From Pontibacter fetidus (lineage in GTDB: Bacteria; Bacteroidota; Bacteroidia; Cytophagales; Hymenobacteraceae), in NCBI RefSeq assembly GCF_010119545.1, contig NZ_JAAEAA010000015.1, positions 1 to 64,000 of the forward strand: 64,000 bases of DNA. Direction: 5' to 3'. Numbering within the stretch: the stretch's first letter is position 1; every line of letters starts with the position of its first letter. The notes below the pieces were generated by a model. That model was not told the DNA's origin and did not search any database. It worked only from the letters and a program-made list of their open reading frames with translations. The translations under genes were made by a program, and so were the position numbers. Below are positions 1 to 64,000 of this stretch, piece after piece.

Positions 1-1
1 C

Positions 2-118
2 CTATTGAAAAATATAGCCTTGAACATCGCCAGAAAATGTAGCTTCCACTCTATGAAGGATGCGATCACAGCTTTTGCCAACAAAATAACACTGATGGCT
101 AAATACATTAGAACTTAA
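2..118 (+). CDS. C-terminal tail of an unidentified protein (partial at window edge)
   Basis: One frame is open from the first bases to a TAA at 116-118 and encodes 38 residues, including ...NIALNIARK... and ending MAKYIRT. The composition looks like coding sequence, and the stop lies at the edge of a GC-rich intergenic repeat. The wording resembles the C-terminal end of some DDE transposases, but this is a weak impression from a short tail. The rest of the gene lies before the window. It may also be a chance open frame. Confidence 0.3.
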   Translation, partial: LLKNIALNIARKCSFHSMKDAITAFANKITLMAKYIRT

Positions 119-188
119 CGACCCTGCTCTCAAGAGGGGAATTTAGATACTGCTATAGTTAGGATCTATAGTTTCATAGTCGCAATTT

Positions 189-230
189 CACCTCACCCCA
201 ACCCTCTCCTAACAGGAGAGGGAGTTTTTA
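189..230. repeat. GC-rich intergenic hairpin repeat (CCCTCTCCT/AGGAGAGGG), copy 1
   Basis: CCCTCTCCT at 202-210 and AGGAGAGGG at 214-222 form a 9-bp perfect stem with a 3-base loop. A CACCTCACCCC lead stands on one side and a T-rich tract on the other. Three further copies lie at 18843-18888, 45066-45105 and 60881-60915. The T-tract after the stem could let it act as a terminator, but the dispersed copies mark it as a repeat family. Confidence 0.65.
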
Positions 231-275
231 TGCCTTTGCTATCGTATAAGCTAGAGTTCTATAGTTGACGTTTAA

Positions 276-302
276 CACCCCTATAGTCCCCTCAAGGGGA
301 CA
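276..302. repeat. Short GC-rich intergenic hairpin, CCCCT-Cu-AGGGG type
   Basis: The arms CCCCT and AGGGG form a small hairpin after a CACCCCTATAG lead. Relatives lie at 109-140, 34345-34560 and 60970-61010, all outside genes. These are dispersed intergenic repeats, and nothing in them suggests coding. Confidence 0.5.
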
Positions 303-355
303 GTTCTGCTAAAGCTATAGTTGTAATTATAGTTTTATAGGTACAGCCTAAAATG

Positions 356-709
356 GCACAGGTCGCGACCTGTCCCTACGAAACTATAGCCACGATAAAT
401 CTCGAAGCTTACCGATTCAAACTATAGTTAAGCTGTAGCTATGAGAAACGTATCAGTCTTTGGGTTGAGCGCCTTGTAAATATCTGGTGCCGTGAAGGCA
501 TTGCGACGAAGGAACAAAAGAGATTTGCACAGCGCGATGCCCGAAGACGAGGCCTCCCGGCCACGAGGGCACCAAAGCTAGATTGAAACTATAGATTTAT
601 AAAGCTCCCAGGATTACAAGAAATTTGAAAGGATAGCTTGGTTCAGATTGGAGAAAGCTTCAACTATAGTAATAAGAGGCTAGCAGGAGCTACGCACGCT
701 GCTAGGTCT
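356..709 (+). repeat. Long composite intergenic repeat, copy 1
   Basis: This is one of three copies of a composite element in the window; the others are at 18301-18712 (reverse) and 61057-61340. In order it holds a palindrome ACAGGTCGCGACCTGT (358-373), a CTATAG-rich linker, a core of 126 bp (454-579) with boxes GTCTTTGGG, GGTGCC, GCATTGCG, GCGCGATGC, CCCGAAGAC and GGGCACC, an AAGCTCCCAGGATT segment, and a 35-bp covarying hairpin at its end. The boxes pair: GTCTTTGGG with CCCGAAGAC (one G-U), GCATTGCG with CGCGATGC, GGTGCC with GGCACC. It has no convincing reading frame. Confidence 0.75.
675..709 (+). repeat. 35-bp covarying REP-like hairpin, copy A
   Basis: The stem arms are CTAGCAG and CTGCTAG around a 12-base loop, flanked by AGAGG and GTCT. 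It belongs to a six-member family in this window and uses the same stem sequence as the copy at 18301-18335. It ends the long composite repeat. Confidence 0.75.
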
Positions 710-735
710 AAACTGCCTGGTCTTTAACTTATAAA

Positions 736-2817
736 TCAATAACTCCCGTTATACTTCCTTACAAACCACTCCACAGAAACCAACGCTAACAACACCAAGA
801 ACAACCATTTCAAATCCACCATATCGCGGATATCTTCCTTGCTGTCGATAACAGGTTTATAGTTTGCTTTAAGAATATCTTGCTGGAGTTGTTTTAGCTG
901 ATTGGGGAAGTATAGGTTTGCACCGGTATTACTGGCGAGCTGATACAAAAGGTTATGGTCTGCCACGGCGTGCAGGGCTTCCAGTTGCAGTTCTTCTACC
1001 ATAAAATCGCCCTTGTCCTGCTGTAGTGAGTTGTTAATGCGGGCAGTGGCGGTATAGGTATAGCGCCCGCCGGGTAGGTTTCCGATAGTTACGCCCGTTT
1101 GGTTTTCTCCATTTGCAAAATTGAAGGTCTTTGTAGCACCGTTTTCATCAGTGATCTTCAGGTTTATATTTTGGCCGTAAACTGGTTCTAGCGCTTCGTT
1201 GTATGCTTCTGCTTCAAAAGTGATCTCGTCGTTGCTGGTATAGTCGTTTTGGGCAGGATATACGTTCAGACGTTTCTTATTACGTGGGGCGCTCAGCAAC
1301 TGCACCAGGTTCGTGATCAATTGGTCATACACTACAGGCTGTTGATTATTGGCTGCTTCGGCAATGCGCCATTGCCAGGTTCCGGAAGCCAGTAGCGTAG
1401 CGTTTCGGGTACTGCCTGTTGTTTGTACTGTTAATAATGGTTTGGTAGTGCGCACACGGCCTACTTGTTGGTAAAGCACCGTTTCTGTATTAGGAGCTAA
1501 TTTGTAATCGCCGAAAGGTACTGTTGCTGGCGGGTATTGCTGCAGGCGCTCGGTGGTTTCTTCAGCCACCTTAAATGTACTGAAGTTGGGATTTATAGCC
1601 GTTGTTACTTCATCAGCCTGCCCATTTGTGCTCACGCGCACCCCTGTATTCAATCGGTTAAAATCCTGTATATCGCTTTGTGGACCAAGTATAAACAGGC
1701 TTGGGATATTTTTCTGTCGGACTAAATTTAAAGCGGCATCGCCTCCGGCTGTTCTGCCCGGCAACTGGTGAAGTATAGCTACATCGTAATCCTGCTGCTT
1801 TAGCGAGGTGAGGCCAGGTATAAACAGCTCAGTTTCGTAGTTTTCGTTGGTTTCGATGGCGGCACGCAGGGCGTTAATATCGGGGTGTGGCGCAGCAGCG
1901 GCTATCAGTATCTTTATCTTTCCTTTTACCACATCGATGTAAGCATGCTTGGTATTGTTGATGGCTGTAAACTCCCCTTGCAGCGGTACTACTTCAACTT
2001 CGTAATGACGTTTGCCTAAACCACCTGCCATCACCTGAAAAGGCACCTGCTGTACAGCCTGCCCTTGCTTTAGAGTTATCGTTTTACGGTCTATCGCTTT
2101 GCCATTCTCTATTAAGGTAACAGCTACAGTTTTATTGCCAAAGCCCTGCTGCTCTACTTCTGCTTCCAACGGGAAACGGTTGCCACTATAGGTTACTTTA
2201 TTGTAGCGCAACGATGCCAGTACAATGTCTTTTTTAGGAACCGTATCACCCACAGCTACCGGGTAAATGCTATAGTTATAGTTGGCGTAGGTGGGTGAAA
2301 TACCCTGGTTCACGATACCATCGGAAAGAAGCACCACGCCAGCCAGGTTCTGGTTGCTATAATCGTTGCGAATGTTTTGTAGTAGCTGGCTCAGGTTAGT
2401 GGAGGGCGCACCAAACTGCACTTGTTCCAGTGTTTCGGGTTTGGTGGTGTCGCTTAGCGTGCGAATCTCTGTTTCGTAGCCGGCATCCTGTAGCCCGGTA
2501 AGTATAGTTTGTAATTCACGCTGAGCCTGATTTAACTGAACAGAATCAGAAAATAACTTTACTGACTGGGAATTATCTACCGCGAAAACTATAGTTGGTT
2601 TTATAGTTGTGTTGGAGATATAACGCACCATTGGCCCCAGTAGCAGGAAGCACAGAAAGCTGACCACCAAAAACCGTAGTACCGCCAGACTGTAGTTTAT
2701 ACTTTTAGACCACGGAGCTTTCTTACTATACAATAGCCACGCATACAGTGCACCCACAGCCAGGCAGGCAAGTATAAGCCACGGAGAATAAGTCGTTATC
2801 AGTCGGAAACTGTTCAA
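736..2817 (-). CDS. VWA-domain membrane protein
   Basis: The 693-residue protein has two N-terminal hydrophobic segments (about residues 11-30 and 43-62), a von Willebrand A-like domain, a long periplasmic part, and a final membrane segment (WLFLVLLALVSVEWF) before a short basic tail. The VWA part begins IVFAVDNSQS, a DxSxS-type metal site, and continues through VVLLSDGIVNQG. This layout is common in Bacteroidota, often near BatA/BatB-like genes, but no MoxR or Bat partner is seen here. VWA domains bind ligands through a divalent metal; the partner is unknown. It lies downstream of fabG on the same strand but behind a terminator, so it is probably transcribed alone. Confidence 0.8.
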   Translation of the reverse strand: MNSFRLITTYSPWLILACLAVGALYAWLLYSKKAPWSKSINYSLAVLRFLVVSFLCFLLLGPMVRYISNTTIKPTIVFAVDNSQSVKLFSDSVQLNQAQRELQTILTGLQDAGYETEIRTLSDTTKPETLEQVQFGAPSTNLSQLLQNIRNDYSNQNLAGVVLLSDGIVNQGISPTYANYNYSIYPVAVGDTVPKKDIVLASLRYNKVTYSGNRFPLEAEVEQQGFGNKTVAVTLIENGKAIDRKTITLKQGQAVQQVPFQVMAGGLGKRHYEVEVVPLQGEFTAINNTKHAYIDVVKGKIKILIAAAAPHPDINALRAAIETNENYETELFIPGLTSLKQQDYDVAILHQLPGRTAGGDAALNLVRQKNIPSLFILGPQSDIQDFNRLNTGVRVSTNGQADEVTTAINPNFSTFKVAEETTERLQQYPPATVPFGDYKLAPNTETVLYQQVGRVRTTKPLLTVQTTGSTRNATLLASGTWQWRIAEAANNQQPVVYDQLITNLVQLLSAPRNKKRLNVYPAQNDYTSNDEITFEAEAYNEALEPVYGQNINLKITDENGATKTFNFANGENQTGVTIGNLPGGRYTYTATARINNSLQQDKGDFMVEELQLEALHAVADHNLLYQLASNTGANLYFPNQLKQLQQDILKANYKPVIDSKEDIRDMVDLKWLFLVLLALVSVEWFVRKYNGSY

Positions 2818-3719: not shown

Positions 3720-3998
3720 AAGCACCAAAGTTATAAAAGATTTTTTAAAGCAATAATGCTCCTGCGGCCAACTACAGAAAAACAACTATAAATAACTGAA
3801 CTATAGTTACATAGCAAAAACACTACACTTTTATAGTACAATCCTGCTTTACGACAAGTGCAAACTTAAATGCTAAATCAGGTATAGCAAAAATCAGCGT
3901 AACTGATTTATAATCTGATTATTGTATTGACATTTATTTTTATTTCTATTGCTTAAGCTATATTTTCGCACATAATTTCAATTTTAAGCCAGTTAGTA

Positions 3999-6780: not shown

Positions 6781-6820
6781 AATACAACTATAGTTTTCCC
6801 CTTTGACTTTTATCAAAACC

Positions 6821-11795: not shown

Positions 11796-11837
11796 AAAAA
11801 AGGGCTGGCAGTTTTTATACTGCCGGCCCTTTTTTAA
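11796..11837. terminator. Bidirectional terminator after the MBL gene
   Basis: AAAAAAGGGCTGGCAG and CTGCCGGCCCTTTTTT form a long stem with one mismatch. It lies between the convergent MBL and 11853 genes and can serve both. Confidence 0.85.
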
Positions 11838-11852
11838 ACTATAGTTTTACAG

Positions 11853-13287: not shown

Positions 13288-13500
13288 GTGTGCGGCGTTG
13301 CGCTTATTAAAGAACGATAAATTAACCTGTAATTTACAAAGAACCATCCGCAAAAACCAGCTTTAGCAGCTCTATAAATTACCTGGCAAATATAAATCTT
13401 ACTATACTTTTAGTTTATACATTAGTTGTACTAAAAAGCAAAAAAAGGGCTGCAACTATAGTTAGTCAGGAGGTTATAGTTAACTGGGCCTGCCACAAAA

Positions 13501-13530: not shown

Positions 13531-14430
13531 TTAGTTTATCTCTATTTTTGTTACCAATTGGTTGTACCCGGCAAATACCCCAAGGCCGCCCTGCATGTTG
13601 GTATACATCAGCGCAGGTTCAGCAAACGGATTGCCATTCGATTCTTCCTGCTTGTCCAGGGCCCGGTGGTAAAGGAAATAGTTTTTGTCTGATACGACCA
13701 GCACACAGTTTATATAGTAGGGCTTATCAACGCTTCCGGAATTATAGTCGTAGTAAACCAATGGCTCCGAAGACATAATGCTGCCCTGGTAATCTTCGTC
13801 GTCCTGCAGTTGCTTGTCCTCGTTATCGTAGCTGCCATAAAGGCCCTCTTTATACGTATGCTTTTTGCCACTGAAATCTGTAAACGAATACTCTTTAAAG
13901 GCCAGGGTACGGTAAAAATTTTTGACTCCGGGGGCATCCTGCCATTTAAAGGTAATGGTATACTTAGGCACGCTTTGTCCATAATAATCCTGTATGATGG
14001 TGTAAGGCGCTGTTGCTTCGGTTATCGTTATACCATCGGTTAAGGGTATGGTACAAGTGGCTTCGGCGGTGCTGCCGGGCGCCGCTACTTTTAAATGGTA
14101 TGTTTTTCCGGCTTGCACAGGCCAGGCACGCGCATCGGCTTCGTACTGGTTAGTAGTTGCATTGTAAGCCAGCGCAACTATAGCTGTACCATCTGCTATA
14201 GTAACTACAGCATCCTTTACATTGCGTTGTTCTTCCGTTAGCTGCTTGCCCAGGGCAGGTTGTGTTTTCTGTACCCGCACTACCAGCATGGTGTCCTGTG
14301 GCGAAATATAAGACACCACTACCAGTTTCGACTTACTTTCAAACGATTCAATATTGTTCACATCGCTTTCGCAGCCGGTAAGGGTTGTAACTATAGTTAC
14401 CAGCAGGGTTATTACGCGTAAAATTTTCAT
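13531..14430 (-). CDS. DUF4249 family lipoprotein (pair 1)
   Basis: The 299-residue protein has a lipoprotein signal peptide (MKILRVITLLVTIVTTLTGC) with lipobox LTGC, so it should be anchored in the outer membrane. The rest is a DUF4249-type beta-rich domain (VVSYISPQDTMLVVRVQKTQPALG) ending with NPFAEPALMYTNMQGGLGVFAGYN. It starts 19 bp after the TonB-receptor gene on the same strand, and the same pair appears at 57695-60813. In this family the lipoprotein is thought to act with its neighbouring receptor, much as SusD does with SusC. The substrate is unknown. Confidence 0.88.
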   Translation of the reverse strand: MKILRVITLLVTIVTTLTGCESDVNNIESFESKSKLVVVSYISPQDTMLVVRVQKTQPALGKQLTEEQRNVKDAVVTIADGTAIVALAYNATTNQYEADARAWPVQAGKTYHLKVAAPGSTAEATCTIPLTDGITITEATAPYTIIQDYYGQSVPKYTITFKWQDAPGVKNFYRTLAFKEYSFTDFSGKKHTYKEGLYGSYDNEDKQLQDDEDYQGSIMSSEPLVYYDYNSGSVDKPYYINCVLVVSDKNYFLYHRALDKQEESNGNPFAEPALMYTNMQGGLGVFAGYNQLVTKIEIN

Positions 14431-16804: not shown

Positions 16805-17059
16805 AGCGGCTAAAAGTTTAATAATTCAGCAAAAATATATAATATTTCAGTAGCTATAATCGGGCCAAGTATTAAATTCTTAAAATATTTAGTAACCAAA
16901 ATATTAAACCCATTCTGAATAGAGATACTGTAAAATTAGCCAACTATAGTTTTGCAGAGTCTTGATTTTCAACCACTACCGTGCCCTTCCGTACCCGTTC
17001 CAAACTACAGCTTACCGCCTGAAAAGCCACAGAAACTATAGCATCCGGCAACAATTGCC

Positions 17060-23622: not shown

Positions 23623-23687
23623 ATTTTAAATTAACCCTATCAACGCCTTTGCACATACTGAAAGGCAGACACGTAAACTATAGCCCT

Positions 23688-28628: not shown

Positions 28629-29036
28629 ATGCCTTTCACTACGTATTATACATCAGCCTTTTATAAAATCGAAATCGATTTGAAAGGTAACCTGCTGCGC
28701 TCTGAATGGCTGCGACACGTAACCGAAGATGAACTAATTTTCGGCGCTACAAAACTATACGAAGCGCTCCGCGACACGAAGGTAGAACGGGCTATTGCCA
28801 ACGGTAAGGTGCTTGGTGCTCTTGGACCCAAGCCTAAAGACTGGATGGCGGCAGAATTTTACGAACTGCTATCGCAAACCAACCTTAAAAAACTGGCCAG
28901 GGTGTTGCCCGATAGCGTGTTTCATAAACTGGCGCTGGAGTCTGTTATTTCAAGAGCTGAAGCGCAGGGCAAAACCCGTTTTGATGTAAAAAGCTTTACA
29001 GACAACGAAGAAGCGCTGCGATGGCTCCTGGCCTGA
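28629..29036 (+). CDS. Hypothetical protein (135 aa), STAS/SpoIIAA-like
   Basis: I do not recognise this protein with certainty. Its layout (YYTSAFYKIEIDLKGNLLRSEWLRHVTEDELIFGATKLYEALRDTKVERAIANG, then KLARVLPDSVFHKLALESVISRAE and a final FDVKSFTDNEEALRWLLA) is like the small Cytophagales proteins of the STAS/SpoIIAA-like group, where the last element FxxxxEALxWL is typical. No signal or membrane segment is present. I start at the ATG at 28629 (MPFTTYYTS), because the upstream extension of ten residues is not conserved-looking. Confidence 0.7.
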   Translation: MPFTTYYTSAFYKIEIDLKGNLLRSEWLRHVTEDELIFGATKLYEALRDTKVERAIANGKVLGALGPKPKDWMAAEFYELLSQTNLKKLARVLPDSVFHKLALESVISRAEAQGKTRFDVKSFTDNEEALRWLLA

Positions 29037-29168
29037 ACTATAGTTTCAGAAAAGTATAATCTTCCCGTCTGGCTTACAAACGGCTAACTTCCTAATTCTT
29101 ATTATATAATAGTTGCCATATACCTATATTCTGATGTAACTTGAGTTCGGAATAGGAGAAGAAGAATC

Positions 29169-34193: not shown

Positions 34194-34231
34194 GGAAAAG
34201 CTTGTTAGCTATAGTTTATCAGGACGAGATA

Positions 34232-34266: not shown

Positions 34267-34344
34267 GGAAACCTTCCCGCTAACACTGGGGAGTTAGAGG
34301 GTTTGATTCTCAACTATAGAACTATAGATAAAACTATAACTATA

Positions 34345-34560
34345 GCAGAAAGTCCCCTATCGGGAGCAGGGCCGTTAAGTTCTGCCGAGAACTATCCCCT
34401 TGAGGGGATTATAGGGGTGTTATTCAGGACCAAAAAGCCAATTGTTAGCCAGTTTTAAATTCACCCGCTAATACAAACACCCCTCTGCGCTCCCCTCAAG
34501 GGGAGAATTTGCTAGAACTTAACGGCCCTGCCTCTTGGGAGGGGGCAGGGGTGGGTTAAT
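34345..34560. repeat. Cluster of GC-rich intergenic hairpins
   Basis: The stretch holds several CCCCT-x-AGGGG hairpins and the phrase ACTTAACGGCCCTGC, which resembles the window start (about 112-140). It lies between the two inverted 35-bp hairpins. I see no reading frame of note in 34194-34809. Confidence 0.6.
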
Positions 34561-34635
34561 TGGTAACTCTAAACTATAGTTAACCCAGATTTCTACTTAC
34601 GTCGAAATAACAATTTGTAGGCCCGTTGCTCAAAA

Positions 34636-38600: not shown

Positions 38601-39101
38601 AAAAAGCTGAACTACTTTACACCAAAGCCGGAACTAGACGCAAAAGCACGCCGCAGACCAGGCTGGTTTACCAAAGACGAGCACATATTTACGCGCCACG
38701 CTGAGTTCGTAAATAACCTTGTAAAAGAGGGTGGTTTGGCTGGTATCGGTTCTCATGGCCAGTTACAGGGTCTTGGGTATCATTGGGAAGTATGGTCGGT
38801 GCAATCGGGTGGCATGAGTAACCACGATGCGCTTAAAGTAGCCACTATACTAGGTGCCAGATCACTGGGCTTGGAAGGTGATATCGGATCTATCGAAAAC
38901 GGAAAACTGGCTGACCTTGTAATAATGGATAACAACCCGCTGGAGAACATCCGTAATACTAACACCATTAAGTATGTGATGCGCAACGGCCGCTTGTTTG
39001 ATGCCAACACCATGGACGAACTGGCCCCTACTGCCCGCAAAGCGCCTGATTTTGACTGGCACAGCGCTATGCCGGTAGGTGTGCCTGGCATAAAGCAATA
39101 A
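35673..39101 (+). CDS. Secreted TolB-propeller/amidohydrolase fusion protein
   Basis: The 1142-residue protein begins MTKPIQANSGRWKKNLLLAC with a signal peptide to about residue 33 (GLFLTPGMAQ). Next comes a TolB/WD40-like propeller with repeated SPDGK and FTPDG motifs (about 70-660), then a metal-dependent amidohydrolase domain with HxH in TPGFVDTHSHMW and a C-terminal ILGARSLGLEGDIGSIENGKLADLVIMDNNPLENI. Such fusions occur in Bacteroidota and Proteobacteria and are often annotated as amidohydrolases of unknown substrate. I use the ATG at 35673, not the TTG at 35652. Confidence 0.88.
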   Translation: MTKPIQANSGRWKKNLLLACSLGLFLTPGMAQEAATPKKADTKKEEKKDLPLEGARKININTSEGSWLALDVSPDGKQIIFSMLGDLYLLPITGGKATQLTDGMAFDTHARFSPDGKSIVFVSDRDGADNIWTMDLATKKPKQISKSKNENFFSAEWTPDGEYLVASRGRRNLKLHLYHKDGGTGVQLINKPENLKTVEPAFGKDDRYIWFSQRTGAWNYNAQLPQYQLATFDRQTGEIETKTARYGSAFAPTLSPDGNWLVFGTRHNNQTGLIAQNLKTGEEKWLAYPVQRDEQESIAPLGVLPPMSFTPDSKELVASYGGKIYSIPVAGGPAREIPFQVNTDIAIGPKLDFKYPIKDDKMMTVTQLRDAAVSPDGKRVAFTALDRLYVMDYPNGTPKRLTDQEFTQAQPAWSPDGKTIAYVTWHEKNGGAIYKTNANGKGKPTKLTQESAVFQEPVFTPNGERIVFAKGSAQSYKEEPGPGAFDARQTINWIPAKGGKSTFVTNAGVGANPHFVKGDDRIYLYNYADGLISIRWDGTDKKSYLKVKGITTFGSVNGDGLMEEMCNMLHQNEREPQQQATTATTLIKAPVGDKALALINNEIYVVTIPVVGGETPTISVADVATSQFPSWKLTEIGGQFPSWSADGKTVYWSIGHGFFAYNLDEAKAKKEQMDLAAEKKKEAKDNGTDAKPDSANAEKEAIVIAEYKPKETKITVQVPRDIPQGIVLLQGARIITMNGNEVIENGDILVENNRIKAVGKSGSLTVPQGAKIVDVKGKTITPGFVDTHSHMWPRWGVHTNQVWMYAANLAYGVTTTRDPQTGTTDVLTYSDLVDAGKMIGPRVYSTGPGVGYWAYNLKSLEHTKNVLRQYSEYYNTKTIKMYLAGNRQHRQWIIMAAKEQGLLPTTEGGLDFKLNMTQAIDGYPGHEHAFPIYPLYKDVIDFVAKSQMAYTPTLLVSYGGPWAENYYYATEDVVGDKKLNYFTPKPELDAKARRRPGWFTKDEHIFTRHAEFVNNLVKEGGLAGIGSHGQLQGLGYHWEVWSVQSGGMSNHDALKVATILGARSLGLEGDIGSIENGKLADLVIMDNNPLENIRNTNTIKYVMRNGRLFDANTMDELAPTARKAPDFDWHSAMPVGVPGIKQ

Positions 39102-39125
39102 ACTATAGTTACTGATAACAGTGCA

Positions 39126-39326: not shown

Positions 39327-41327
39327 ATGATAACAGCTCTACTCGTACAATTTTTCCTGCTTATTATTGTGCCTGACCCAAAGGCAAATGCTTTGCAGCA
39401 TTCTGCCAGCAATACAAGAGCAGCGCAGCATCACCAGGCCGAAGAACTATGTGAACTTAGCAAAGCGCATTGGTACACCGACCCCAAACTGGCCGTATCG
39501 TATGGCAGGCAAGCTATAAAATTAGCCACCAAAATAAACGACAAGCTACTGCTGGCCAGGGCTTATAACAGTGTTGGTTCAGGTTTTTATAACCTCGGCG
39601 ACTATAACACCTCGGCTGATTATTACTACAAGGCTGTTAAGCTCCGCGAAGCCCTGGCAGATACAATAGGCATGAGCTCCAGTTACAATAACATCGGCAA
39701 TATTTACCTGAACCAGCAGAACTACGAAAGAGCTCAGAACTACTACCAGAAATCGTTTGAATTAGCCGAACTTGTAAAAGATACTATAGGTATTAGCCGG
39801 GCACTTAACAGCCTGGGCAATGTGCACCGCCGCCAGCAACACTTCGACAAGGCCCTGCACTACTACCTCAGAGCGCTGCCATTAAAAGAGAGAGCCCAGG
39901 ACGACCGGGGAACCGTTATCAGCCTTAACAACCTAGGCATAACCTACCAGAAACTCGGGAACAATAAAGATGCCCTGCACTACCTGCAGCGCGGGCTGGC
40001 CCTTGCCATCAGGTCCAACAACCTGCACGACCAGATATTTTCGTACCGGGGCCTGGCCGAAACGCACCAGGGCATGAAGGACTATAAAAATGCTATAGCT
40101 TATGCCAGAAAAAGCCTTGATGTAGCCCAGCATACCTACTCTAAAAGCGAAGCAAAGAACTCGGCAGAGGTGCTGCAGAAGATCCTGAGCGAGACCGGGA
40201 ACTATAAAGCAGCATACCAGTACCTGAAATTGGTAGCAGCTTATAATGACAGCATCAACACCGAAGAAATAACCCGCCAGACCACCAGTTTCCAGGTAAA
40301 GTACGAAACAGCCCAAAAGGAAAAAGAAAACCTGAAACTACTGGCCGAGCACGAGCTGCACGAACAGGAAATAGAACACCAGACCCTGATAAAATATACG
40401 GCTATCGGGCTGTTAGCGCTTGCTATTACAGTAGTGATGCTGGTTTTCAGGGGGAGCCAGCGCACCAAGCGCATGAACAAACTGTTGTCGCGCAAAAATA
40501 AAAAGGTAAGCAAGTATAGCGAGAATATTAAAAATCAGAAAAACGAACTGGCGGCGCAGGCAAAAGAACTACAGCAGCAGAAAGAGGAACTTGAGAAGCT
40601 GAACCAGGTAAAAGACAAGCTTTTTTCTATAGTTGCACACGACCTCCGGGGGCCGTTGCTTTCTTTAAAATCGCTGTTGCAGGTACTAGCCATGGGCCGG
40701 ATTACAGAAGAACAGTTTATGCATTTTGCCAAAACCCTGGAAGCGGAGCAGCAAAATACCCTTTGGCTGGTAGATAACCTGTTACTATGGGCGCGTTCCC
40801 AAATGCAGGGCACCTCTATAAAACCGGAAGAAATATGCATACATGCCCTTACCGATAATACCCTGAAACTGCTGGCCCCACAGGCGAACCGCAAAAGCGT
40901 AAGCATGCAAAACTTTGCCTCGCAAACTATAGCTGCCTTTGCCGATGCCGATATGATACAGCTTGTGCTACGTAACCTGGTATCTAACGCCATTAAATTC
41001 TGTAACGAAGGCGATGTAGTAACTATAGAATCAGAACTGCTAAACGACCATACCCTGCAGGTTGCCGTGCGCGACACAGGAACAGGTATCTGCCCTAAAA
41101 AAATGGAAAAGCTGTTTGGGCTGCGTACTTACTCTACCTTAGGTACCAACAAAGAAAGAGGTAGCGGACTGGGCCTAGCCATGTGCCGCGATTTTGTGGA
41201 AAGCAACCACGGTAAAATATGGGCAGAAAGCGTATTGGGAGAAGGAAGTGTTTTCAGGTTTACGTTACCGCTTGCTACTAAAACTATAGTTGCAACCCCG
41301 GAAGCCGAAGCCGCTGAGGTGCTTTAA
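39327..41327 (+). CDS. TPR-repeat sensor histidine kinase
   Basis: The 666-residue protein has an N-terminal signal or membrane segment (ALLVQFFLLIIV), then about six to seven TPR repeats (residues 35-270, e.g. SSYNNIGNIYLNQQNYERAQNYYQKSFELA). A coiled coil and a membrane helix follow (about 352-373, LIKYTAIGLLALAITVVMLVFRG), then HisKA with His in FSIVAHDLRGPLLSLKSLL, and HATPase (NLVSNAIKFC, DTGTGICPKKMEKLFGL, GSGLGLAMCRDFV). The TPRs would face the periplasm. No response regulator is adjacent. Confidence 0.9.
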   Translation: MITALLVQFFLLIIVPDPKANALQHSASNTRAAQHHQAEELCELSKAHWYTDPKLAVSYGRQAIKLATKINDKLLLARAYNSVGSGFYNLGDYNTSADYYYKAVKLREALADTIGMSSSYNNIGNIYLNQQNYERAQNYYQKSFELAELVKDTIGISRALNSLGNVHRRQQHFDKALHYYLRALPLKERAQDDRGTVISLNNLGITYQKLGNNKDALHYLQRGLALAIRSNNLHDQIFSYRGLAETHQGMKDYKNAIAYARKSLDVAQHTYSKSEAKNSAEVLQKILSETGNYKAAYQYLKLVAAYNDSINTEEITRQTTSFQVKYETAQKEKENLKLLAEHELHEQEIEHQTLIKYTAIGLLALAITVVMLVFRGSQRTKRMNKLLSRKNKKVSKYSENIKNQKNELAAQAKELQQQKEELEKLNQVKDKLFSIVAHDLRGPLLSLKSLLQVLAMGRITEEQFMHFAKTLEAEQQNTLWLVDNLLLWARSQMQGTSIKPEEICIHALTDNTLKLLAPQANRKSVSMQNFASQTIAAFADADMIQLVLRNLVSNAIKFCNEGDVVTIESELLNDHTLQVAVRDTGTGICPKKMEKLFGLRTYSTLGTNKERGSGLGLAMCRDFVESNHGKIWAESVLGEGSVFRFTLPLATKTIVATPEAEAAEVL

Positions 41328-52323: not shown

Positions 52324-54703
52324 AGTAGCCCTCCGCAACCTGTACCGCAACAAGGTATACTCTGCCATCAACATTGCCGGGCTGGCCTTGGGGGTGGCTT
52401 CGTGTATCCTTATATTCCTGTATGTGCAGGACGAGCTAAGCTATGATAGCCAATTTAGTGATGCAGACCGCATTGTGCGGGTAGCCGGCGAAATAGAGCA
52501 TGATGGCCAGACAAACAAGTTTGCTTTGTCTGCGCCAACGCTTGCCCCTTTCCTGCTAAAAGATTACCCCGAGCTGGAACATGTAACCCAGTTACTGCCT
52601 GCCAATAAACAAACCATCTGGTACAAAGACCGCAGCTTTAACGAGGACAAACTGCTATTTGCTGACAGCGCTTTTTTCGAGGTTTTTGACTATAAATTCC
52701 TGGCCGGTAACCCTGCTACAGCTTTAGACCAACCCCGAACTATAGTTGTAAGCGAACAGATGGCGCAAAAGTATTTCGGAAGCCCAGACAAAGCATTGGG
52801 CGAAGTCCTTAAATTCAGCCGCGACTCTTACAGGGTGACCGGTGTTTTTACGGACGAAGGCAATTCCCATATCCAGGCCAATGCTTTCCTGGCCCGCAGC
52901 ACTTTCGACACACAACAGCAGGATGTATTAACAGATAATAACCACTGGTTTATGTTGAGCCGGTATACGTATGTCCTGCTGCGGGATGAAGCCCAGATCG
53001 CTCCTTTCCAGGAAAAACTGAAGACCTTTGCAGCTACCCATATTACTCCCTGGTTAAAGGAAAACGACTTGCAGGCTTCGGTAAAATTTGTGTTGCAGCC
53101 ACTGCGCAGCATTCATTTCAATACAGAATATACAGAAGACATATCCACGCCGGGCAATATCAGCTACATCTATATTTTCTCGGTTGTCGCTGTTTTCCTG
53201 TTACTTATTGCAAGTATAAATTACATGAACCTGGCTACCGCCCGCTCCGCTAAACGCGCCAGGGAAGTTGGTTTACGAAAAGTAGTTGGGGCTTACCGTT
53301 CCCAGATCATTGGCCAGTTTATAGGCGAATCTCTTTTGATTACTCTGTTGGCCGTAATTCTGGCGCTTGCCCTGGCACAGATCCTTGTTCCTACTTTTAA
53401 TTCGCTTACAGATAAGCAGTTCAACTCAAATTTCTTTTTACAGAAGGAAGTTATAGTTGTGCTGCTTGCCATTATCCTATTTATCGGGGCGGTAGCCGGT
53501 AGTTATCCAGCCATATTCCTGTCTCGGTTTAAGCCTGTTGATGTACTGAAAGCAGACAAAGCACCCCGCGGTGGAAACGCTGCTTTACGCAGATCGCTGG
53601 TTGTTATCCAGTTCACCATTTCTCTTATACTGATCATAGGCACGCTGGTGGTTTTCAGCCAGATGCGGTTTTTAAAGAACCGGGATCTTGGGTTCAACAA
53701 AGAGCAAGTGCTTATTATCGACATCCCGACCGGTGACTCTACTTTGGTAAATCAACTGCCCAGTATAAAACAGGAATTACTGCGCAACCCCAACATCGAA
53801 CATGTATCCAATTCTTTAAATATACCGGCAGGCGACTTAAGCACCATACTGGTGTATGCTGAAAAAGATGGCGGCACCCTGCAAAATGCCATGAATGCGA
53901 TGTTTGTGGATTATGATTTTGTGGATGTAATGGGCATCGATCTGAAAGAAGGGCGCAACTTCTCTAAAGAATTTAAAACAGACCTGAAAGGTGGACTGAT
54001 CGTGAACGAGGCAGCCGTAAAAAAAATGCAGTGGAAAAATCCGATCGGTAAACGCATTCAGATGGCTGACTGGGATGCAAAAGTGATAGGCGTGGTAAAA
54101 GACTTCCATGTAAAATCGTTACATAGCAAAGTAGAGCCTTTAATACTGGCCCTTACCCCCGAGTCGTCGGGTTATTTACTGGTACGCATGAAACCGCAGG
54201 ACATGCCGGCAACTATAGCTTTTGTACAGGAAAAATGGCAGGCATTCGACACCAAACACCCGATGGAGTATTTTTTTATGGATGAGTATTTTGATAAACA
54301 GTACCGGGCCGAGGAAAAGATGCTGACCGTGTTTGGGTACTTTGCCGGGCTTACCATTTTTATAGCATGCCTGGGTCTGTTTGGGCTGGCCTCGTTTACA
54401 GCGCAGCAGCGCACCAAAGAGATTGGCATCAGAAAAGTGCTGGGCTCATCCACTACAAGTATAGTTTTGCTGCTCTCCCGCGATTTTGCTGTGCTGGTTA
54501 TGGTGGCTATACTTATTGCCATACCTATTGCCTGGTATGGCATGGATAAATGGCTGCAGGATTTTGCGTACCGCACGAACCTGAGCTGGTGGATTTTTGC
54601 CGTAGCCGGGCTCGCCGCCATGAGCATTGCATTGCTGACTGTAAGCTTCCAGGCCATAAAAGCTGCCATGCTCGACCCTATAAAAGCGATCCGGACACAA
54701 TAA
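52304..54703 (+). CDS. ABC transporter permease with tandem FtsX/MacB domains
   Basis: The 799-residue permease has an N-terminal helix (AINIAGLALGVASCILIFLYVQ), a large periplasmic MacB-type domain, FtsX helices around 290-410 (VVAVFLLLIASINYMNLATARSAKRAREVGLRKVVG), then a second periplasmic domain and a second FtsX set (AGLTIFIACLGLFGLASFTAQQRTKEIGIRKVLG). Two FtsX halves in one chain mean a single subunit could form the full membrane part. It is typical of Bacteroidota macrolide or peptide export pumps (MacB type); the cargo is unknown. Its start overlaps the ATPase gene. Confidence 0.93.
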   Translation: MLQNYFKVALRNLYRNKVYSAINIAGLALGVASCILIFLYVQDELSYDSQFSDADRIVRVAGEIEHDGQTNKFALSAPTLAPFLLKDYPELEHVTQLLPANKQTIWYKDRSFNEDKLLFADSAFFEVFDYKFLAGNPATALDQPRTIVVSEQMAQKYFGSPDKALGEVLKFSRDSYRVTGVFTDEGNSHIQANAFLARSTFDTQQQDVLTDNNHWFMLSRYTYVLLRDEAQIAPFQEKLKTFAATHITPWLKENDLQASVKFVLQPLRSIHFNTEYTEDISTPGNISYIYIFSVVAVFLLLIASINYMNLATARSAKRAREVGLRKVVGAYRSQIIGQFIGESLLITLLAVILALALAQILVPTFNSLTDKQFNSNFFLQKEVIVVLLAIILFIGAVAGSYPAIFLSRFKPVDVLKADKAPRGGNAALRRSLVVIQFTISLILIIGTLVVFSQMRFLKNRDLGFNKEQVLIIDIPTGDSTLVNQLPSIKQELLRNPNIEHVSNSLNIPAGDLSTILVYAEKDGGTLQNAMNAMFVDYDFVDVMGIDLKEGRNFSKEFKTDLKGGLIVNEAAVKKMQWKNPIGKRIQMADWDAKVIGVVKDFHVKSLHSKVEPLILALTPESSGYLLVRMKPQDMPATIAFVQEKWQAFDTKHPMEYFFMDEYFDKQYRAEEKMLTVFGYFAGLTIFIACLGLFGLASFTAQQRTKEIGIRKVLGSSTTSIVLLLSRDFAVLVMVAILIAIPIAWYGMDKWLQDFAYRTNLSWWIFAVAGLAAMSIALLTVSFQAIKAAMLDPIKAIRTQ

Positions 54704-57694: not shown

Positions 57695-60007
57695 ATGCCC
57701 TTTTCTTTTAGCCGGTATCTTTTTCTGTTATTTTTTGTTCTGTCTGCCAGTATTGGCTTTGCCCAGCAGTACCGGGTAAGCGGGCTTGTAAAGTCGGCTG
57801 CAGCAAACGAGCCCCTGATTGGCGCTACCGTAGCAGTACCTCAATTAAGGCAGGGCACATCTACAAACGCAACCGGGTTTTATAGTTTAACCCTCCCGCC
57901 AGGCACTTATGACCTGCAAACTACCTACATCGGTTACCTGACCACCACTCAAACTATAACCGTTACCAACGCTGACCAAACTATAGACATAACTCTGCAA
58001 CCAACAGAGAACCAGCTAAACGAAGTAGTGGTAGTTGCCAACAGCCTGCAACAGAAACTGACCGAGAACCGCATGAGTGTAGAGCAACTCTCTACCCGCG
58101 AAGCTAAGCTGTTACCTGCCCTTTTTGGGGAAGTGGATCTGATAAAAACATTGCAATTAAAGCCCGGCGTTCAGTCTGGAGGCGAAGGCTCGTCGGGGTT
58201 GTATGTGCGTGGCGGCGGCCCTGACCAGAATTTGGTACTGCTGGATGATGCCGTAATTTACAACCCATCGCACTTATTCGGCTTTTTTAGCGTGTTTAAT
58301 CCGGAGGCTGTGCGCGATGTGGAACTATACAAAGGCGGTTTTCCGGCACAGTTTGGTGGCAGGCTGTCATCAGTACTGGATGTGCGCATGAACGAGGGAA
58401 ATAACGAGCAGCTGCGTACCAGCGGCGGTATTGGCCTTATTTCATCCAGGCTTAGTATAGATGGGCCTGTCGTGAAAGATAAACTAACTTTCCTGGTAGC
58501 GGGCAGGCGCACTTACGTCGATTCGTTTACCCGCGTCATCAACAAACTAAACGAAGATAAAAAAGACTATAACCCGATACCTGACTACTACTTTTACGAC
58601 TTTAATGCCCGCCTAAACTATAAACCAACCCCAAAAGACGAACTGACCTTAAGCGGTTACTACGGCCGCGATTTCTTTGTTTTTAAGGATTCCGGTTTCC
58701 AGTTCTCGTTTGACTGGGGCAACAAAACAGGGGTTATTAACTGGCGCCATAACTATAGTTCGCGGCTGTTCTCAAACACATCGCTTTCGGCAACGGCTTA
58801 CGAGTACCGCATCAAAAACGAGATCGATGTGTTTAGTTTTAACCTGCGCTCCGATGTAAAAGACCTGACCCTGAAAACTGATTACGAGTGGCTGCTGGAT
58901 GATAAACATACGATAAAGTTCGGGGCATCGGGCACCAATCACGCTTTTACGGTGGGGCGCCTAAACTTTTCAAGCGATGATAACAGCCTGAATTTTGGTG
59001 CGGGCAACAACTATAGCGCCAGTGAGTTTGGGGCTTACCTTTCGGATGATTATAAAATAAATGCACTGCTCTCGCTGAACTATGGCCTGCGGGTTTCGGG
59101 GTTTAACAACAAAGGCAAAACCTATTCGGCCCTGGAGCCCCGCGCTGCTGCCAGCTATAATTTAACGGAAAACACGACGCTAAAAGCCAGTTACGCCAGC
59201 ATGATGCAGTACATACACCTGGTAACCAACTCCGGTGCCTCGTTGCCAACTGATATCTGGTTTCCGTCTACGCAACGCGTAAAACCGCAGCGCTCGCAAC
59301 AGGTGGCAGCAGGTGTAAGCAAACTTTTCGGCCAGGGCAAATACCTTATCACTAATGAGGTATACTATAAATGGATGCACCGCCAGATCGATTTCCGGGA
59401 TGGAGCCAATTTGTTTGTAAACGATAGCCTGGAAAATGAATTTCTGTTTGGCAAAGGCGAAAGCTATGGCAACGAACTATACCTGGAGAAAATAAAAGGC
59501 CGCACCACCGGCTGGATCGGCTATACCTTGTCGTGGACCTACCGCCAGTTTGACGAGATAAATGAAGGCCGCCGCTTCCCGACGCGCTACGACCGCCGCC
59601 ACGATGTAAGTGTGGTATTGCTGCACCAGTTAAACGACCGTCTTAGCCTGACGGGCGCATTTGTGTATGGCACCGGCAACGCGTTCTCGTTGCCTGTAGC
59701 GCGCTTTGCTTTCCAGGATGTGGAGCGTAAAGAGCCAACCGTTATCCCCATCTACAGCGACCGAAACAGCTTCCGGCTGGATGCCACGCATCGCCTGGAC
59801 CTGGGTGTAGTCTGGAAGCTTAAACCAAAGCATGGTGAAGCAGATCTTACGTTCAGTGCTTATAATGCCTATAATCGCCGCAACCCATACTTTGTATATT
59901 TTGATGAACTGAAGGACGAGCAGGATGAAAAGACCATCGGCTTCCAGGCCAAACAGGTTTCGCTGTTCCCGGTTATCCCTTCTGTTACTTACAATTTTAA
60001 ATTCTGA
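57695..60007 (+). CDS. TonB-dependent receptor with carboxypeptidase-like N-terminal domain (pair 2)
   Basis: The 770-residue outer-membrane receptor has a signal peptide (FLLFFVLSASIGFAQ), a CarboxypepD-regulatory-like domain (about 26-105), a plug (LFGEVDLIKTLQLKPGVQSGGEGSSGLYVRGGGPDQNLVLLDDAVIYNPSHLFGFF) and a barrel ending in VTYNFKF. The plug matches the receptor at 14450-16804 closely, so the two are paralogues. The last A of its stop codon is also the first A of the DUF4249 start codon, so translation is coupled. Imported ligand unknown. Confidence 0.93.
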   Translation: MPFSFSRYLFLLFFVLSASIGFAQQYRVSGLVKSAAANEPLIGATVAVPQLRQGTSTNATGFYSLTLPPGTYDLQTTYIGYLTTTQTITVTNADQTIDITLQPTENQLNEVVVVANSLQQKLTENRMSVEQLSTREAKLLPALFGEVDLIKTLQLKPGVQSGGEGSSGLYVRGGGPDQNLVLLDDAVIYNPSHLFGFFSVFNPEAVRDVELYKGGFPAQFGGRLSSVLDVRMNEGNNEQLRTSGGIGLISSRLSIDGPVVKDKLTFLVAGRRTYVDSFTRVINKLNEDKKDYNPIPDYYFYDFNARLNYKPTPKDELTLSGYYGRDFFVFKDSGFQFSFDWGNKTGVINWRHNYSSRLFSNTSLSATAYEYRIKNEIDVFSFNLRSDVKDLTLKTDYEWLLDDKHTIKFGASGTNHAFTVGRLNFSSDDNSLNFGAGNNYSASEFGAYLSDDYKINALLSLNYGLRVSGFNNKGKTYSALEPRAAASYNLTENTTLKASYASMMQYIHLVTNSGASLPTDIWFPSTQRVKPQRSQQVAAGVSKLFGQGKYLITNEVYYKWMHRQIDFRDGANLFVNDSLENEFLFGKGESYGNELYLEKIKGRTTGWIGYTLSWTYRQFDEINEGRRFPTRYDRRHDVSVVLLHQLNDRLSLTGAFVYGTGNAFSLPVARFAFQDVERKEPTVIPIYSDRNSFRLDATHRLDLGVVWKLKPKHGEADLTFSAYNAYNRRNPYFVYFDELKDEQDEKTIGFQAKQVSLFPVIPSVTYNFKF

Positions 60008-61340: not shown

Positions 61341-61416
61341 TGACAGAGAAGTACAGGCTTAAACTATAGGACACATAAGATTCCTCGGCTTTGCTCGGAA
61401 TGGCAAATAATGAAAT

Positions 61417-61453
61417 AAAAATGCCTTGACTAAAGGATAGCCAAGGCATTTTT
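61417..61453. terminator. Terminator after the PNP gene
   Basis: AAAAATGCCTTG and CAAGGCATTTTT form a 12-bp stem with a 13-base loop. The stem's own A-run gives T-runs on both strands. It lies 20 bp after the PNP stop. Confidence 0.85.
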
Positions 61454-61472
61454 GTTAATCTATAGTCTCAAC

Positions 61473-62288
61473 TTACTGTAAAGCAATTAACTCACGAATA
61501 AGTCGGGTCATAAGTGGCTCGGCTTTGGCAGCGGCGTCCAGGATATCGCTTAATATAACTTTCTTTATCCTGTCTGGGGTACCCATATCCGTGATAACCG
61601 AAACTGCAAAGCAAGGCATACCCATGTGGCGCGCAGCAATTACTTCCGGCACTGTAGACATACCCACCGCATCAGCACCAATAGTACGGATGTAGCTATA
61701 TTCTGCCAGCGTCTCCAGCATTGGGCCTGGTACAGAAGCATACACTCCTGTACGTATGGTAAAGCCTTCTTTAGCGGCAATTTCTACAGCCTGCTGCACC
61801 ATTTTGTGGTCGTAGGCTTCGCTCATATCCGGGAAGCGTGGGCCGAGTTCATCCAGGTTAGGGCCAAGCAACGGATTTGATGGCTGCAGGTTAATATGGT
61901 CGGTCTGGATCATCAGGTCGCTCACGTTAAAGTCTGGGTTCAGGCCACCGGATGCATTGGAAACAAACAGCTTTTGCACGCCCAGCAATTTCATCACGCG
62001 CACCGGGAAAACCACCTGGTGCATGGTATAACCTTCGTAAAAATGGAAGCGGCCCTGCATTACAATTACACGGCGTCCTGCCAGCGTACCCAAAATAAGC
62101 TTTCCGGAGTGGCTCTCAACCGTAGAAACAGGGAAGTGCGGAATATCGGCATACGACAGGCTGTACTGTACTTCGATCTCTTTTACCAGTGCACCCAAAC
62201 CAGTACCCAGTATAATACCAAACTCAGGGACAAAGTTATCGGTGTTGTTCTGTATGTAAGCTTTCGCTTCGTGTAATTGCTGCATCAT
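61473..62288 (-). CDS. Purine-nucleoside phosphorylase (type I)
   Basis: The 271-residue cytoplasmic enzyme cleaves purine nucleosides with phosphate to base and ribose-1-phosphate in purine salvage. Motifs fit the trimeric PNP type: GIILGTGLGALVKEIE, GRRVIVMQGRFHFYEGYTMHQVVFPVRVMKLLGVQKLFVSNASGGLN and DHINLQPSNPL, with MSTVPEVIAARHMGMPCFAVSVITD. It starts at ATG 62288 (MMQQLHEAK) or the next codon. A terminator lies after it. Confidence 0.93.
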   Translation of the reverse strand: MMQQLHEAKAYIQNNTDNFVPEFGIILGTGLGALVKEIEVQYSLSYADIPHFPVSTVESHSGKLILGTLAGRRVIVMQGRFHFYEGYTMHQVVFPVRVMKLLGVQKLFVSNASGGLNPDFNVSDLMIQTDHINLQPSNPLLGPNLDELGPRFPDMSEAYDHKMVQQAVEIAAKEGFTIRTGVYASVPGPMLETLAEYSYIRTIGADAVGMSTVPEVIAARHMGMPCFAVSVITDMGTPDRIKKVILSDILDAAAKAEPLMTRLIRELIALQ

Positions 62289-62484
62289 GGGCTTAATCTG
62301 TTAATATGCTAATAAGTGAATGTACAAATTTAGATTCAATGAATTTAACAACGCAAAATAGGCGATTTTATAGTTGCTAATAAATGACTTTCATCACAGG
62401 TTTAACGAGAGGAACTATAAACACCACAGCATCAAAACTATAGTTTACGGCAAGTTGCAAAGAATACGTTTAGCTTAAAATAAA

Positions 62485-62514
62485 ACCGCCGCAGCTAACT
62501 ATAGCCACGGCGGT
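62485..62514 (-). terminator. Terminator after sppA
   Basis: ACCGCCG and CGGCGGT form a 7-bp stem with a loop that contains CTATAG; on the minus strand it is followed by TTTTATTTTAAG. It lies about 54 bp after the sppA stop. Confidence 0.7.
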
Positions 62515-62567
62515 CTGTAACCTATATCTGATGAACAATTAAGTTATTCATTCATCAGTCGTTAAAA

Positions 62568-64000
62568 TTATTCTACGCTCAGGTTGTATAGCATACGCGT
62601 CTGGATGCCCTGTAGGTGTTCTACTTTTTTGTACATGTTATACAGCGGGTATAGTTCGCCCAGTTCGGCTTTTACGTACTGCGCTTTTACCTGCGAGCCG
62701 GCATCTCCTACCAGTTCCTCCAGGAAAGATTTGCGGGCCGGAAGCTCCGTTAACCGATAGTCGTTTTTGATGTTGGCTTTGGCCGCTGCTACTTCAATGG
62801 CTGTCTCCAGTCCCCCGAACATATCAACCAGGTTACGCTGCTTGGCCTCGGCGCCAGACCATACACGGCCCGATGCGTATTCCTTCAGTTTATCCTGCGT
62901 CATGCCGCGGCCCTCGGCTGCTTTTTTAGTAAACACATCGTAGATCTGGTTTATCTGGCGCTGCACTACTTCCTGCTCAAAAGCGGTCATCGGGCGTGTA
63001 AGCGTTGGCACATCTGAGTATTTGCCGGTCTTCACGTTATCTATAGTTATACCCAGCTTGTTGTTCATAAAGCCCTGTATGTTAGGGATGATACCAAACA
63101 CGCCAATGCTGCCGGTAATGGTGTTAGGATGCGCTACAATGGTGTCGCAGCCCATGGCCAGGTAATAACCACCCGAAGCCGCCACATCAGACATAGAGGC
63201 AATAACCGGCTTTACTTTACGGGTCAGTTGTATTTCGCGCCACATTACATCCGAAGCCAAAGCGCTGCCACCCGGCGAACTGATACGCAACACTACTGCT
63301 TTTACTTTATCATCGAGACGGGCTTTGCGAATGGCCTCAGCATAACGCTCGCTGCCAATCTCATCGTCGTCGCCTTTGCCATCCACTATATCGCCTTCGG
63401 CATAAATTACGGCAATGCGGTTTTTAGAAGAGTTCTTCTCTTTCTTGCCTTCCGCTTTTTTATACTTGCTAAAGCTTATCAGTTCCAGTTTGCCATCTTC
63501 CTTTATACCCGCTTTTTTCTTCAGGTAAGTGATCGCTTCGTCATAATACCCTACGTCTGTTATCAGGCCATACTTCTTGGCATCGGCGGCATCGCGCACC
63601 AGCAGGTTATCCGAAATGTTCTTTAGTTCTTCGTAAGTCTTGTTGCGGGCTTTGGCTATGTTGCGCAGCTGAAAATCGTTGATCGAGTTCAGGAACGACT
63701 GCATCTGTAAACGGGCAGGGTCGCTCATTTTATCGAGGAAGAAAGGCTCTACAGCGCTTTTAAATTCACCAACTTTAAAAATCTGGGGTTTTATGTCCAG
63801 TTTATCCAGAGTGCCTTTAAAGAAATATACCTCGGAGCTCATGCCGTTAAATTCCATGGTACCTAATGGGTTCACATAAATCTTATCAGCTACGGATGAC
63901 AGGTAATACGCTTTTTCGTTTGCCATATCGGTATAAGACACCACAAACTTGCCCGACTTCTTAAAGTCGATCAGTTCGTTCCGGATCTCTTCCAGTTTGG
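62568..64000 (-). CDS. sppA: Signal peptide peptidase SppA (67K type, N-terminus beyond the window)
   Basis: The frame stays open to the window end (upstream residues read ...NELIDFKKSGKFVVSYTD), so the N-terminus is missing. SppA is a membrane serine peptidase that cleaves released signal peptides. The catalytic Lys is in MANEKAYYLSS and the Ser in SMSDVAASGGYYLAMG; the ISSPGGSALASD segment is typical. About 478 residues are seen, consistent with the larger SppA form with tandem domains. A hairpin follows its stop. Confidence 0.93.
   Translation of the reverse strand, partial: KLEEIRNELIDFKKSGKFVVSYTDMANEKAYYLSSVADKIYVNPLGTMEFNGMSSEVYFFKGTLDKLDIKPQIFKVGEFKSAVEPFFLDKMSDPARLQMQSFLNSINDFQLRNIAKARNKTYEELKNISDNLLVRDAADAKKYGLITDVGYYDEAITYLKKKAGIKEDGKLELISFSKYKKAEGKKEKNSSKNRIAVIYAEGDIVDGKGDDDEIGSERYAEAIRKARLDDKVKAVVLRISSPGGSALASDVMWREIQLTRKVKPVIASMSDVAASGGYYLAMGCDTIVAHPNTITGSIGVFGIIPNIQGFMNNKLGITIDNVKTGKYSDVPTLTRPMTAFEQEVVQRQINQIYDVFTKKAAEGRGMTQDKLKEYASGRVWSGAEAKQRNLVDMFGGLETAIEVAAAKANIKNDYRLTELPARKSFLEELVGDAGSQVKAQYVKAELGELYPLYNMYKKVEHLQGIQTRMLYNLSVE

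Follow-up and report, generated by a model that had tools for sequence, protein, structure and literature searches.

The window analysed here is a stretch of 64,000 nt from the Pontibacter fetidus genome (G000, contig C6), in which a short word with the core TATA occurs both in genes, among them sbcC, and in the spacers between them. An earlier note on this DNA had singled out the hexamer CTATAG. The window contains 104 copies of CTATAG and 17 of the 10-bp palindrome AACTATAGTT, and the enriched unit is an oriented 7-mer, AACTATA, with preferred flanks (201 copies on both strands). Other Pontibacter species carry related 7-mers, and we refer to the form in the window as the AAC dialect. Among named relatives, the SbcD of P. 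fetidus is closest to that of P. populi (93%), followed by P. burrus (90%) and Pontibacter sp. Tf4 (88%). Sites are listed below, with other genomes of the genus given by G-number.

153..669, spacer cluster of nine CTATAG (153, 166, 259, 281, 315, 384, 422, 589, 664)
34209..34581, spacer cluster of five CTATAG after sbcC (34209, 34314, 34322, 34340, 34574)
420..429, AACTATAGTT, spacer
2587..2596, AACTATAGTT, inside gene 736-2817; identical in G031 and G038, altered in G045, G018 and G033
3799..3808, AACTATAGTT, spacer
6786..6795, AACTATAGTT, spacer
11837..11846, AACTATAGTT, spacer
13454..13463, AACTATAGTT, spacer
14389..14398, AACTATAGTT, inside gene 13531-14430
16942..16951, AACTATAGTT, spacer
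29036..29045, AACTATAGTT, spacer between open reading frame (ORF) 28599-29036 and sbcD
32127..32136, AACTATAGTT, in sbcC as Asn-Tyr-Ser; kept in G031, G038, G045 and G018, altered in 13 other aligned relatives
32889..32898, AACTATAGTT, in sbcC; Asn only in P. fetidus, Ser or Thr in 17 aligned relatives
34572..34581, AACTATAGTT, spacer
39101..39110, AACTATAGTT, starts on the last base of ORF 35652-39101, the rest in spacer
41282..41291, AACTATAGTT, inside gene 39327-41327
52738..52747, AACTATAGTT, in gene 52304-54703 as Thr-Ile-Val; kept in G045 and G018, altered in G033, G027 and G044
58751..58760, AACTATAGTT, in gene 57695-60007 as Asn-Tyr-Ser; missing from all four relatives aligned at this site
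62436..62445, AACTATAGTT, spacer

Abundance and chance models

Expected counts were obtained from Markov models of order 0–4 and of maximal order, and from within-gene permutation of synonymous codons using our own gene calls, made by codon score. The 104 copies of CTATAG compare with 15.0 expected at order 1 and 13.7 at order 2, close to the 100 or more against about 16 that the earlier note had estimated. Its two samples by eye also came out well: five copies in 23,600–26,300 were counted as five, and about ten in the first 700 bases as nine. Models of high order swallow the excess because TATAG and AACTAT are sub-words of the enriched word. The hexamer is therefore only slightly above expectation at maximal order (104 versus 85.7) and at order 4 (208 versus 173 on both strands), whereas longer words remain in excess. 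On both strands, AACTATAGTT occurs 34 times versus 0.21, 1.9 and 11.5 at orders 2, 3 and 4, and AACTATAG occurs 107 times versus 44.7 at order 4. Of the two checks proposed in the earlier note, an order-4 model nearly removes the excess of its hexamer but not that of the 10-mer, and codon-aware shuffling leaves both in excess.

Counted separately, genes and spacers both show the excess, as had been claimed. Wholly inside called genes lie 54 of the 104 CTATAG and 7 of the 17 AACTATAGTT. Across 388 genes called in 464 kb of P. fetidus, AACTATAGTT occurs 50 times versus 1.7 after codon permutation (maximum 6 in 100 shuffles), AACTATA 474 versus 84, TATAGTT 293 versus 32 and CTATAG 431 versus 121, which bears out the view that codon bias alone is insufficient. 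The word is used on both strands and in every frame without a stop; within genes the full palindrome reads Thr-Ile-Val 40 times, Asn-Tyr-Ser ten times and never falls in the stop-bearing frame, the frame usage described in the earlier note. Density of AACTATAGTT is about seven times higher in spacers than in genes (0.876 versus 0.127 per kb), and 70 kb of P. fetidus spacer hold 61 copies versus 4.9 at order 3. The whole genome (4.07 Mb, 49 contigs) has 1087 copies versus 5 of the reversed pattern, a control word present 2–15 times in each of 50 Pontibacter genomes.

The enriched unit

CTATAG did not hold up as the unit. AACTATA is enriched without the second half (1335 copies versus 98 at order 2 on both strands of the 464 kb), and the palindrome acts as two copies. 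G or A follows AACTATA in 85% of cases, and the tail GTT follows it 534 times versus 190 under independence of the three tail positions. Palindromic tails are likewise coupled in the AAG and AGG dialects described below (52 versus 8.6 and 38 versus 10.8, respectively). Palindromes lie 2.8–6 times above independence, as expected of two overlapping copies, and we read AACTATAGTT as two opposite copies of the 7-mer sharing TATA.

Any change in the central TATA of the 10-mer removes most of the excess (0–3 times expected), and changes at outer positions leave a 4- to 73-fold excess. TAT is least tolerant of change in all three dialects, with the AAG set analysed without the weaker genomes G020 and G022. 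It is the firmest part of the core because the final A of TATA is partly exchangeable for G in the 7-mers of the other dialects (AAGTATG 4.9-fold, AGGTATG 2.8-fold).

Dialects across the genus

We counted AACTATAGTT in 148 genomes, including 50 of Pontibacter as delimited in the genome collection, with Botryobacter ruber included. Only eight genomes, all Pontibacter, have more than 28 copies: P. fetidus and the AAC genomes G018 (1477), G045 (1300), G031 (1164) and G038 (1124), followed by G027 (330), G033 (232) and G044 (104). The 98 genomes outside Pontibacter have at most 18 each.

Across Pontibacter the word has a common architecture: AAC, AAG or AGG, then TATA, usually with A or G after it. 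Dialects were called at an excess of at least 4.5-fold and more than 0.6 sites per kb, from samples of 12–464 kb per genome (often 20 kb). On these samples, 20 of the 50 genomes have AAGTATA, 12 have AGGTATA, 5 have AACTATA, two (G033 and G027) have AAC and AAG at similar strength, and 11 have none of the three. Whole-genome counts cover the AAC dialect; AAG and AGG rest on the samples. G028, with five AACTATA (5.5-fold), has too few for a dialect call. In the comparison with other Hymenobacteraceae that the earlier note suggested, the sampled loci of Hymenobacter, Adhaeribacter and Rufibacter show no excess of the three words.

In a tree of ComEC and SbcD, which is a small basis, the 12 AGG genomes and the 7 AAC-bearing genomes each form one clade with 100% bootstrap, and the AGG clade has the AAG genome G006 as its sister (91%). 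The AAG genome G044 adjoins the AAC group in this midpoint-rooted tree, but in a tree of 31 genes from the window region it groups with the AGG genomes and G006. G033 is sister to P. fetidus in both trees (95% and 99%), and G027 is basal in the AAC group (100% in one tree, 62% in the other). The 31-gene tree was built without sbcD and sbcC, and with G012 left out for length; the ComEC and SbcD tree was built without sbcD of G027. These genes were dropped because the G027 copy is anomalous. Its SbcD (L120) is 75% identical to that of P. fetidus, below the outgroups G044 and G006 (83%), and the neighbouring genes of G027 are mostly about as close to P. fetidus as in other AAC genomes, which suggests that sbcD was replaced by transfer. 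The 11 word-less genomes are scattered over several branches of the tree, a pattern that requires losses or more than one gain. The AAG dialect is probably older.

Some further words lie at the edge of these classes. AAGTATA of P. fetidus itself reaches 4.4-fold, just under the threshold (only 1.6–2.1 in G031, G038, G045 and G018), perhaps as a sign of a dialect change common to its sister G033. In G043 (L138, L234), classed as word-less, CTATATA is 6-fold over expectation, with 50 copies in 44 kb and no tandem array in L138, and is perhaps a further TATA-core dialect. In 24 kb of G037 (L187, L312), GGTATGG and GGTATAG exceed expectation 5- to 6-fold; they may be another dialect, one related to AGGTATAG.

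Origin and persistence of sites

For the window region we examined codon alignments of those coding sites at which four or more relatives aligned, namely 5 full sites and 14 others. Sites are built base by base, by substitutions at several positions. Here, as in DNA uptake sequences (DUS), copies arise by point substitution in resident DNA. Some of the site-making substitutions alter variable residues (for example Thr to Ser within Tyr-Thr-Leu stretches of SbcD and SbcC). At full sites the outgroups differ at 4–7 of 10 bases versus a background of 2.8–3.4 (2–4 sites per outgroup).

In the pairwise comparison each gene was represented by its best tblastn piece, with an identity of at least 60% required. 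Persistence of aligned sites is largely confined to pairs of species with the same dialect. Between P. fetidus and G031, AACTATA was kept at 36 of 65 sites and AAGTATA at 3 of 32; across G031, G038, G045 and G018 the ranges are 45–59% and 6–20% of aligned sites. Against the AAG relative G044, AACTATA was kept at 5 of 56 sites (9%) and AAGTATA at 12 of 27 (44%; p = 3.6e-4), and the AAG genomes G004, G032 and G049 resemble G044 (10–11 AAG sites each). Two-dialect G033 kept 36% of AACTATA and 62% of AAGTATA. G027 (36% AAC, 39% AAG) and G006 (4% and 18%) show no significant difference between dialects. AACTATA of P. fetidus is aligned to AAGTATA at 10 of 132 sites in G033, versus 3.7% C–G exchange in general, and at 0 of 65, 64, 108 and 112 sites in the four AAC relatives.

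Distribution along the genome

Sampled stretches carry about 2–3 sites per kb. Sites are over-dispersed in 1-kb bins of P. fetidus (variance 6.0 for a mean of 2.9 per kb). In 2-kb bins, density is 0.90 per kb at GC below 0.38 (10 bins, part of them from one glycan cluster) versus about 3.1 per kb at GC of 0.42 or more; fewer sites in AT-rich DNA is the opposite of a composition effect. The low-GC surface-glycan cluster has 0.55 sites per kb versus 1.14 and 2.73 on its sides, and it may have been acquired recently. The 14 longest site-free stretches include this cluster, with its glycosyltransferase-like and nucleotide-sugar genes, ribosomal protein and EF-Tu operons (genes named by eye) and also unremarkable genes, among them two of an ABC-transporter pair of the window. 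In one AAG genome, G021, with strands assigned by GC skew of 16 stretches, there is no replichore bias (326 leading, 296 lagging; p = 0.24).

Other repeated words were also seen. The 14-mer palindrome CAGGTCGCGACCTG at window 359-372 has 12 copies in 464 kb of P. fetidus; its 10-mer core occurs 3 times in 80 kb of G031, once in 80 kb of G018 and 3 times in 200 kb of G021. CCCCTCAAGGGG also recurs, with 7 copies on both strands.

Candidate machinery

The competence channel ComEC was found in 50 of 50 Pontibacter genomes. Word loss brought about by loss of comEC was not seen, ComEC being open in all 11 word-less genomes. Only G022 (L283) and G009 (L307) have a ComEC match with one internal stop, for which assembly error is possible. 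Among the 20 AAG genomes G022 also has the smallest fold excess, but its density is not the lowest, so a link between its comEC stop and its weak word is only suggestive.

Riemerella is a naturally transformable member of the Bacteroidota with ComEC, DprA, ComF and otherwise unusual genes, and DUF5689 is the family of one of its transformation genes, according to the parts of PMC8459023 consulted. Of the seven AAC-bearing genomes, all but G027 have a DUF5689 protein (L195:1315-2583), which also occurs in some other genomes. We rejected it as a candidate receptor: it comes in two protein sizes and is not in all word-bearing genomes.

Three methyltransferase families are patchy. PF01555 matches 31 of 50 genomes, PF02086 13 and PF00145 23, and none of the three has a match in the word-bearing genomes G014, G022, G023, G036 and G049. 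PF07669 matches 47 of 50, but as a mixture of several different proteins, and has no match in G022. One HsdM of the PF02384 type was seen in G033; PF02384 itself was not searched in the genomes. Of the 50 genomes, 15 have a nearly full-length copy of a single-chain, MmeI-like restriction-modification protein (L215:2392-5877, 1161 amino acids), which is broken or fragmentary in some other Pontibacter. Its sequence after the NPPF motif differs among the seven read, and relatives of such enzymes read asymmetric words. It has no match in the strong AAC genomes G031, G038 and G045. For the families searched, a methylation site, one of the possible causes named in the earlier note, is not supported: neither the four families nor the MmeI-like protein tracks the word.

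Interpretation

Of the causes considered, a protein-binding word driven to high copy, in the manner of DNA uptake sequences, appears to fit best. The explanation to which we tentatively lean, at somewhat less than even confidence, is that the genus-wide word set reflects DUS-like molecular drive. Uptake-biased drive is favoured because the DUS architecture is shared, Riemerella is transformable and ComEC is present in all 50 genomes. The large excess, dialects that track the species tree, sites built by point substitution, dialect-dependent retention and the lower density in AT-rich DNA also speak for it. A sequence-specific DNA-binding protein would prefer word-bearing DNA, and would most likely do so as free DNA is taken up in natural transformation. 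Incoming DNA with better matches would replace resident alleles, copies would accumulate by molecular drive within the limits of protein constraint, and a dialect would shift when the specificity of the reader shifts. The reader would probably not be a type IV pilus protein of the ComP type. Slightly less probable is the specific version in which Pontibacter has a system for recognition and uptake of self-DNA with TATA-cored dialects and without type IV pili, whose reader changed specificity at least twice, with G033 and G027 as if caught mid-change.

Several results weigh against uptake-biased drive. ComEC does not discriminate because word-less genomes have it too, and G009 has a comEC stop yet a strong AGG word (16-fold). 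A type IV pilus ATPase (T2SSE, PF00437) was not found in the 50 genomes; the PF00437 matches are pieces of about 25–66 profile positions, in 3 of 50 genomes barely above the cut-off. DUF5689 occurs in 22 of 50 genomes, five of them without the word, and in P. fetidus the protein (422 amino acids) follows a SusD-like gene. Neither its distribution nor its place behind a SusD-like gene marks DUF5689 as the receptor, and no reader was found. A literature search found no uptake or competence test of Pontibacter. Turnover is fast: AAC relatives share only 18–22% of the 10-mers around CTATAG exactly, versus a background of 12–16%, and on average these 10-mers differ more than background. The same footprint would be expected from any other drive that is sequence-specific.

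One alternative, unlikely but a serious contender, is a word bound by a chromosomal protein of nucleoid organisation, recombination or repair, selected for many copies and drifting in specificity between clades. Core-sharing dialects and dialect-specific conservation would suit any co-evolving DNA-binding protein, as would the density of sites across sampled stretches. Even coverage, however, needs neither the clustering seen (one spacer has nine CTATAG within about 520 bases) nor the over-dispersion, the one genome tested has no strand bias like that of Chi or KOPS (FtsK orienting polar sequences), and 11 of 50 species manage without the three words. A methyltransferase that reads the word, with methylation-linked repair or selection accumulating copies, is less probable again. 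Such an origin has a precedent in cyanobacteria, where highly iterated palindromes (HIPs) track cognate methyltransferases in the sections of PMC4390886 used here. MmeI-like enzymes do exist in Pontibacter. The distribution of the candidates speaks against this origin: three families are unmatched in five word-bearing genomes, one of which, G022, also lacks a PF07669 match, the MmeI-like protein is nearly complete in fewer than a third of genomes and unmatched in three strong AAC genomes, and the widespread PF07669 is several different proteins.

Base composition, codon usage or mutation that depends on context is, by itself, a very improbable cause. Models of order 4 and of maximal order leave little CTATAG excess, as this explanation would predict, but a 30-fold excess of the 10-mer survives synonymous codon permutation, the reversed control is rare in all 50 genomes, sites are rarer in AT-richer DNA and relatives of similar GC use other dialects. 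These tests refute composition and codon usage, and a mutation-only model is set aside by argument together with the composition tests. Least credible of all is a short mobile or repeated element. Palindromes lie in spacers, often clustered, as copies of an element might; the flanks of 128 copies in 464 kb (256 on both strands) are almost unconserved beyond the word, and coding copies align base by base with relatives, with gaps in two rows only.

Words that mark a genome's own DNA for uptake are described for Neisseriaceae and Pasteurellaceae in the literature as excerpted here. Among the matches listed in our full-text literature searches, there was no report of this word or of uptake sequences in Bacteroidota. 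If uptake-biased drive is the cause, Pontibacter would provide sequence-selective uptake of self-DNA in a phylum where these searches found none reported, and a practical rule for its transformation: add the right word to the DNA. A Bacteroidota genus with dialects, mixtures and apparent absences would make the reading protein findable by co-variation. The Pontibacter series could also show whether such words owe their origin to biased uptake, to selection or to repair, which the HIP1 paper leaves open as far as its consulted sections go (PMC4390886).

Comparison with known systems

The likeness to HIP1 drawn in the earlier note is a fair analogy for a genome-wide word: both are over-represented palindromes, with other words instead in some species. 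It does not extend to the dialects, which share a core, unlike alternate HIPs; these are mutually unrelated words that track cognate methyltransferases, as HIP1 does, in the same sections of PMC4390886. HIPs are GC-rich, with the palindrome as the unit and a cognate methyltransferase. The Pontibacter unit is an AT-rich oriented 7-mer that is enriched alone, AACTATAGTT has G or C at 2 of 10 positions, and no tested methyltransferase family tracks the word.

Chi sites are an over-represented oriented word. The Pontibacter word differs from Chi in having palindromic pairs in excess and no leading-strand bias in G021; nor do its sites in that genome point toward one replication strand in the manner of KOPS.

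Over-representation of Haemophilus and Neisseria uptake sequences falls with mismatch load and is explained by molecular drive from uptake bias in the portions of PMC1939737 drawn on here, which show similar mismatch curves for HIP1 and Chi. The excess of the Pontibacter word, which is unrelated to these in sequence, also falls with mismatch load. A mismatch curve by itself does not identify uptake because those of HIP1 and Chi are similar.

The closest parallels are with the DUS of Neisseriaceae. Their effect on uptake and transformation has been tested, and their receptor is ComP, a type IV minor pilin, in the accounts available to us. Pontibacter differs in its phylum, in its AT-rich word and in that the search for a type IV pilus ATPase found none. 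The excerpts of PMC3630211 used here describe a short word with the conserved core CTG and dialects by phylogeny, two dialects in nearly equal numbers in Simonsiella muelleri, and some genomes without obvious DUS. The Pontibacter words similarly occur in hundreds to thousands of copies around a conserved core (TATA), and for the AAC dialect, by whole-genome counts, they lie far above chance genome-wide, as DUS and uptake signal sequences do. As in Neisseriaceae, the dialects are a few bases apart and consistent with phylogeny, some genomes lack the word, and G033 and G027 combine two dialects as S. muelleri does.

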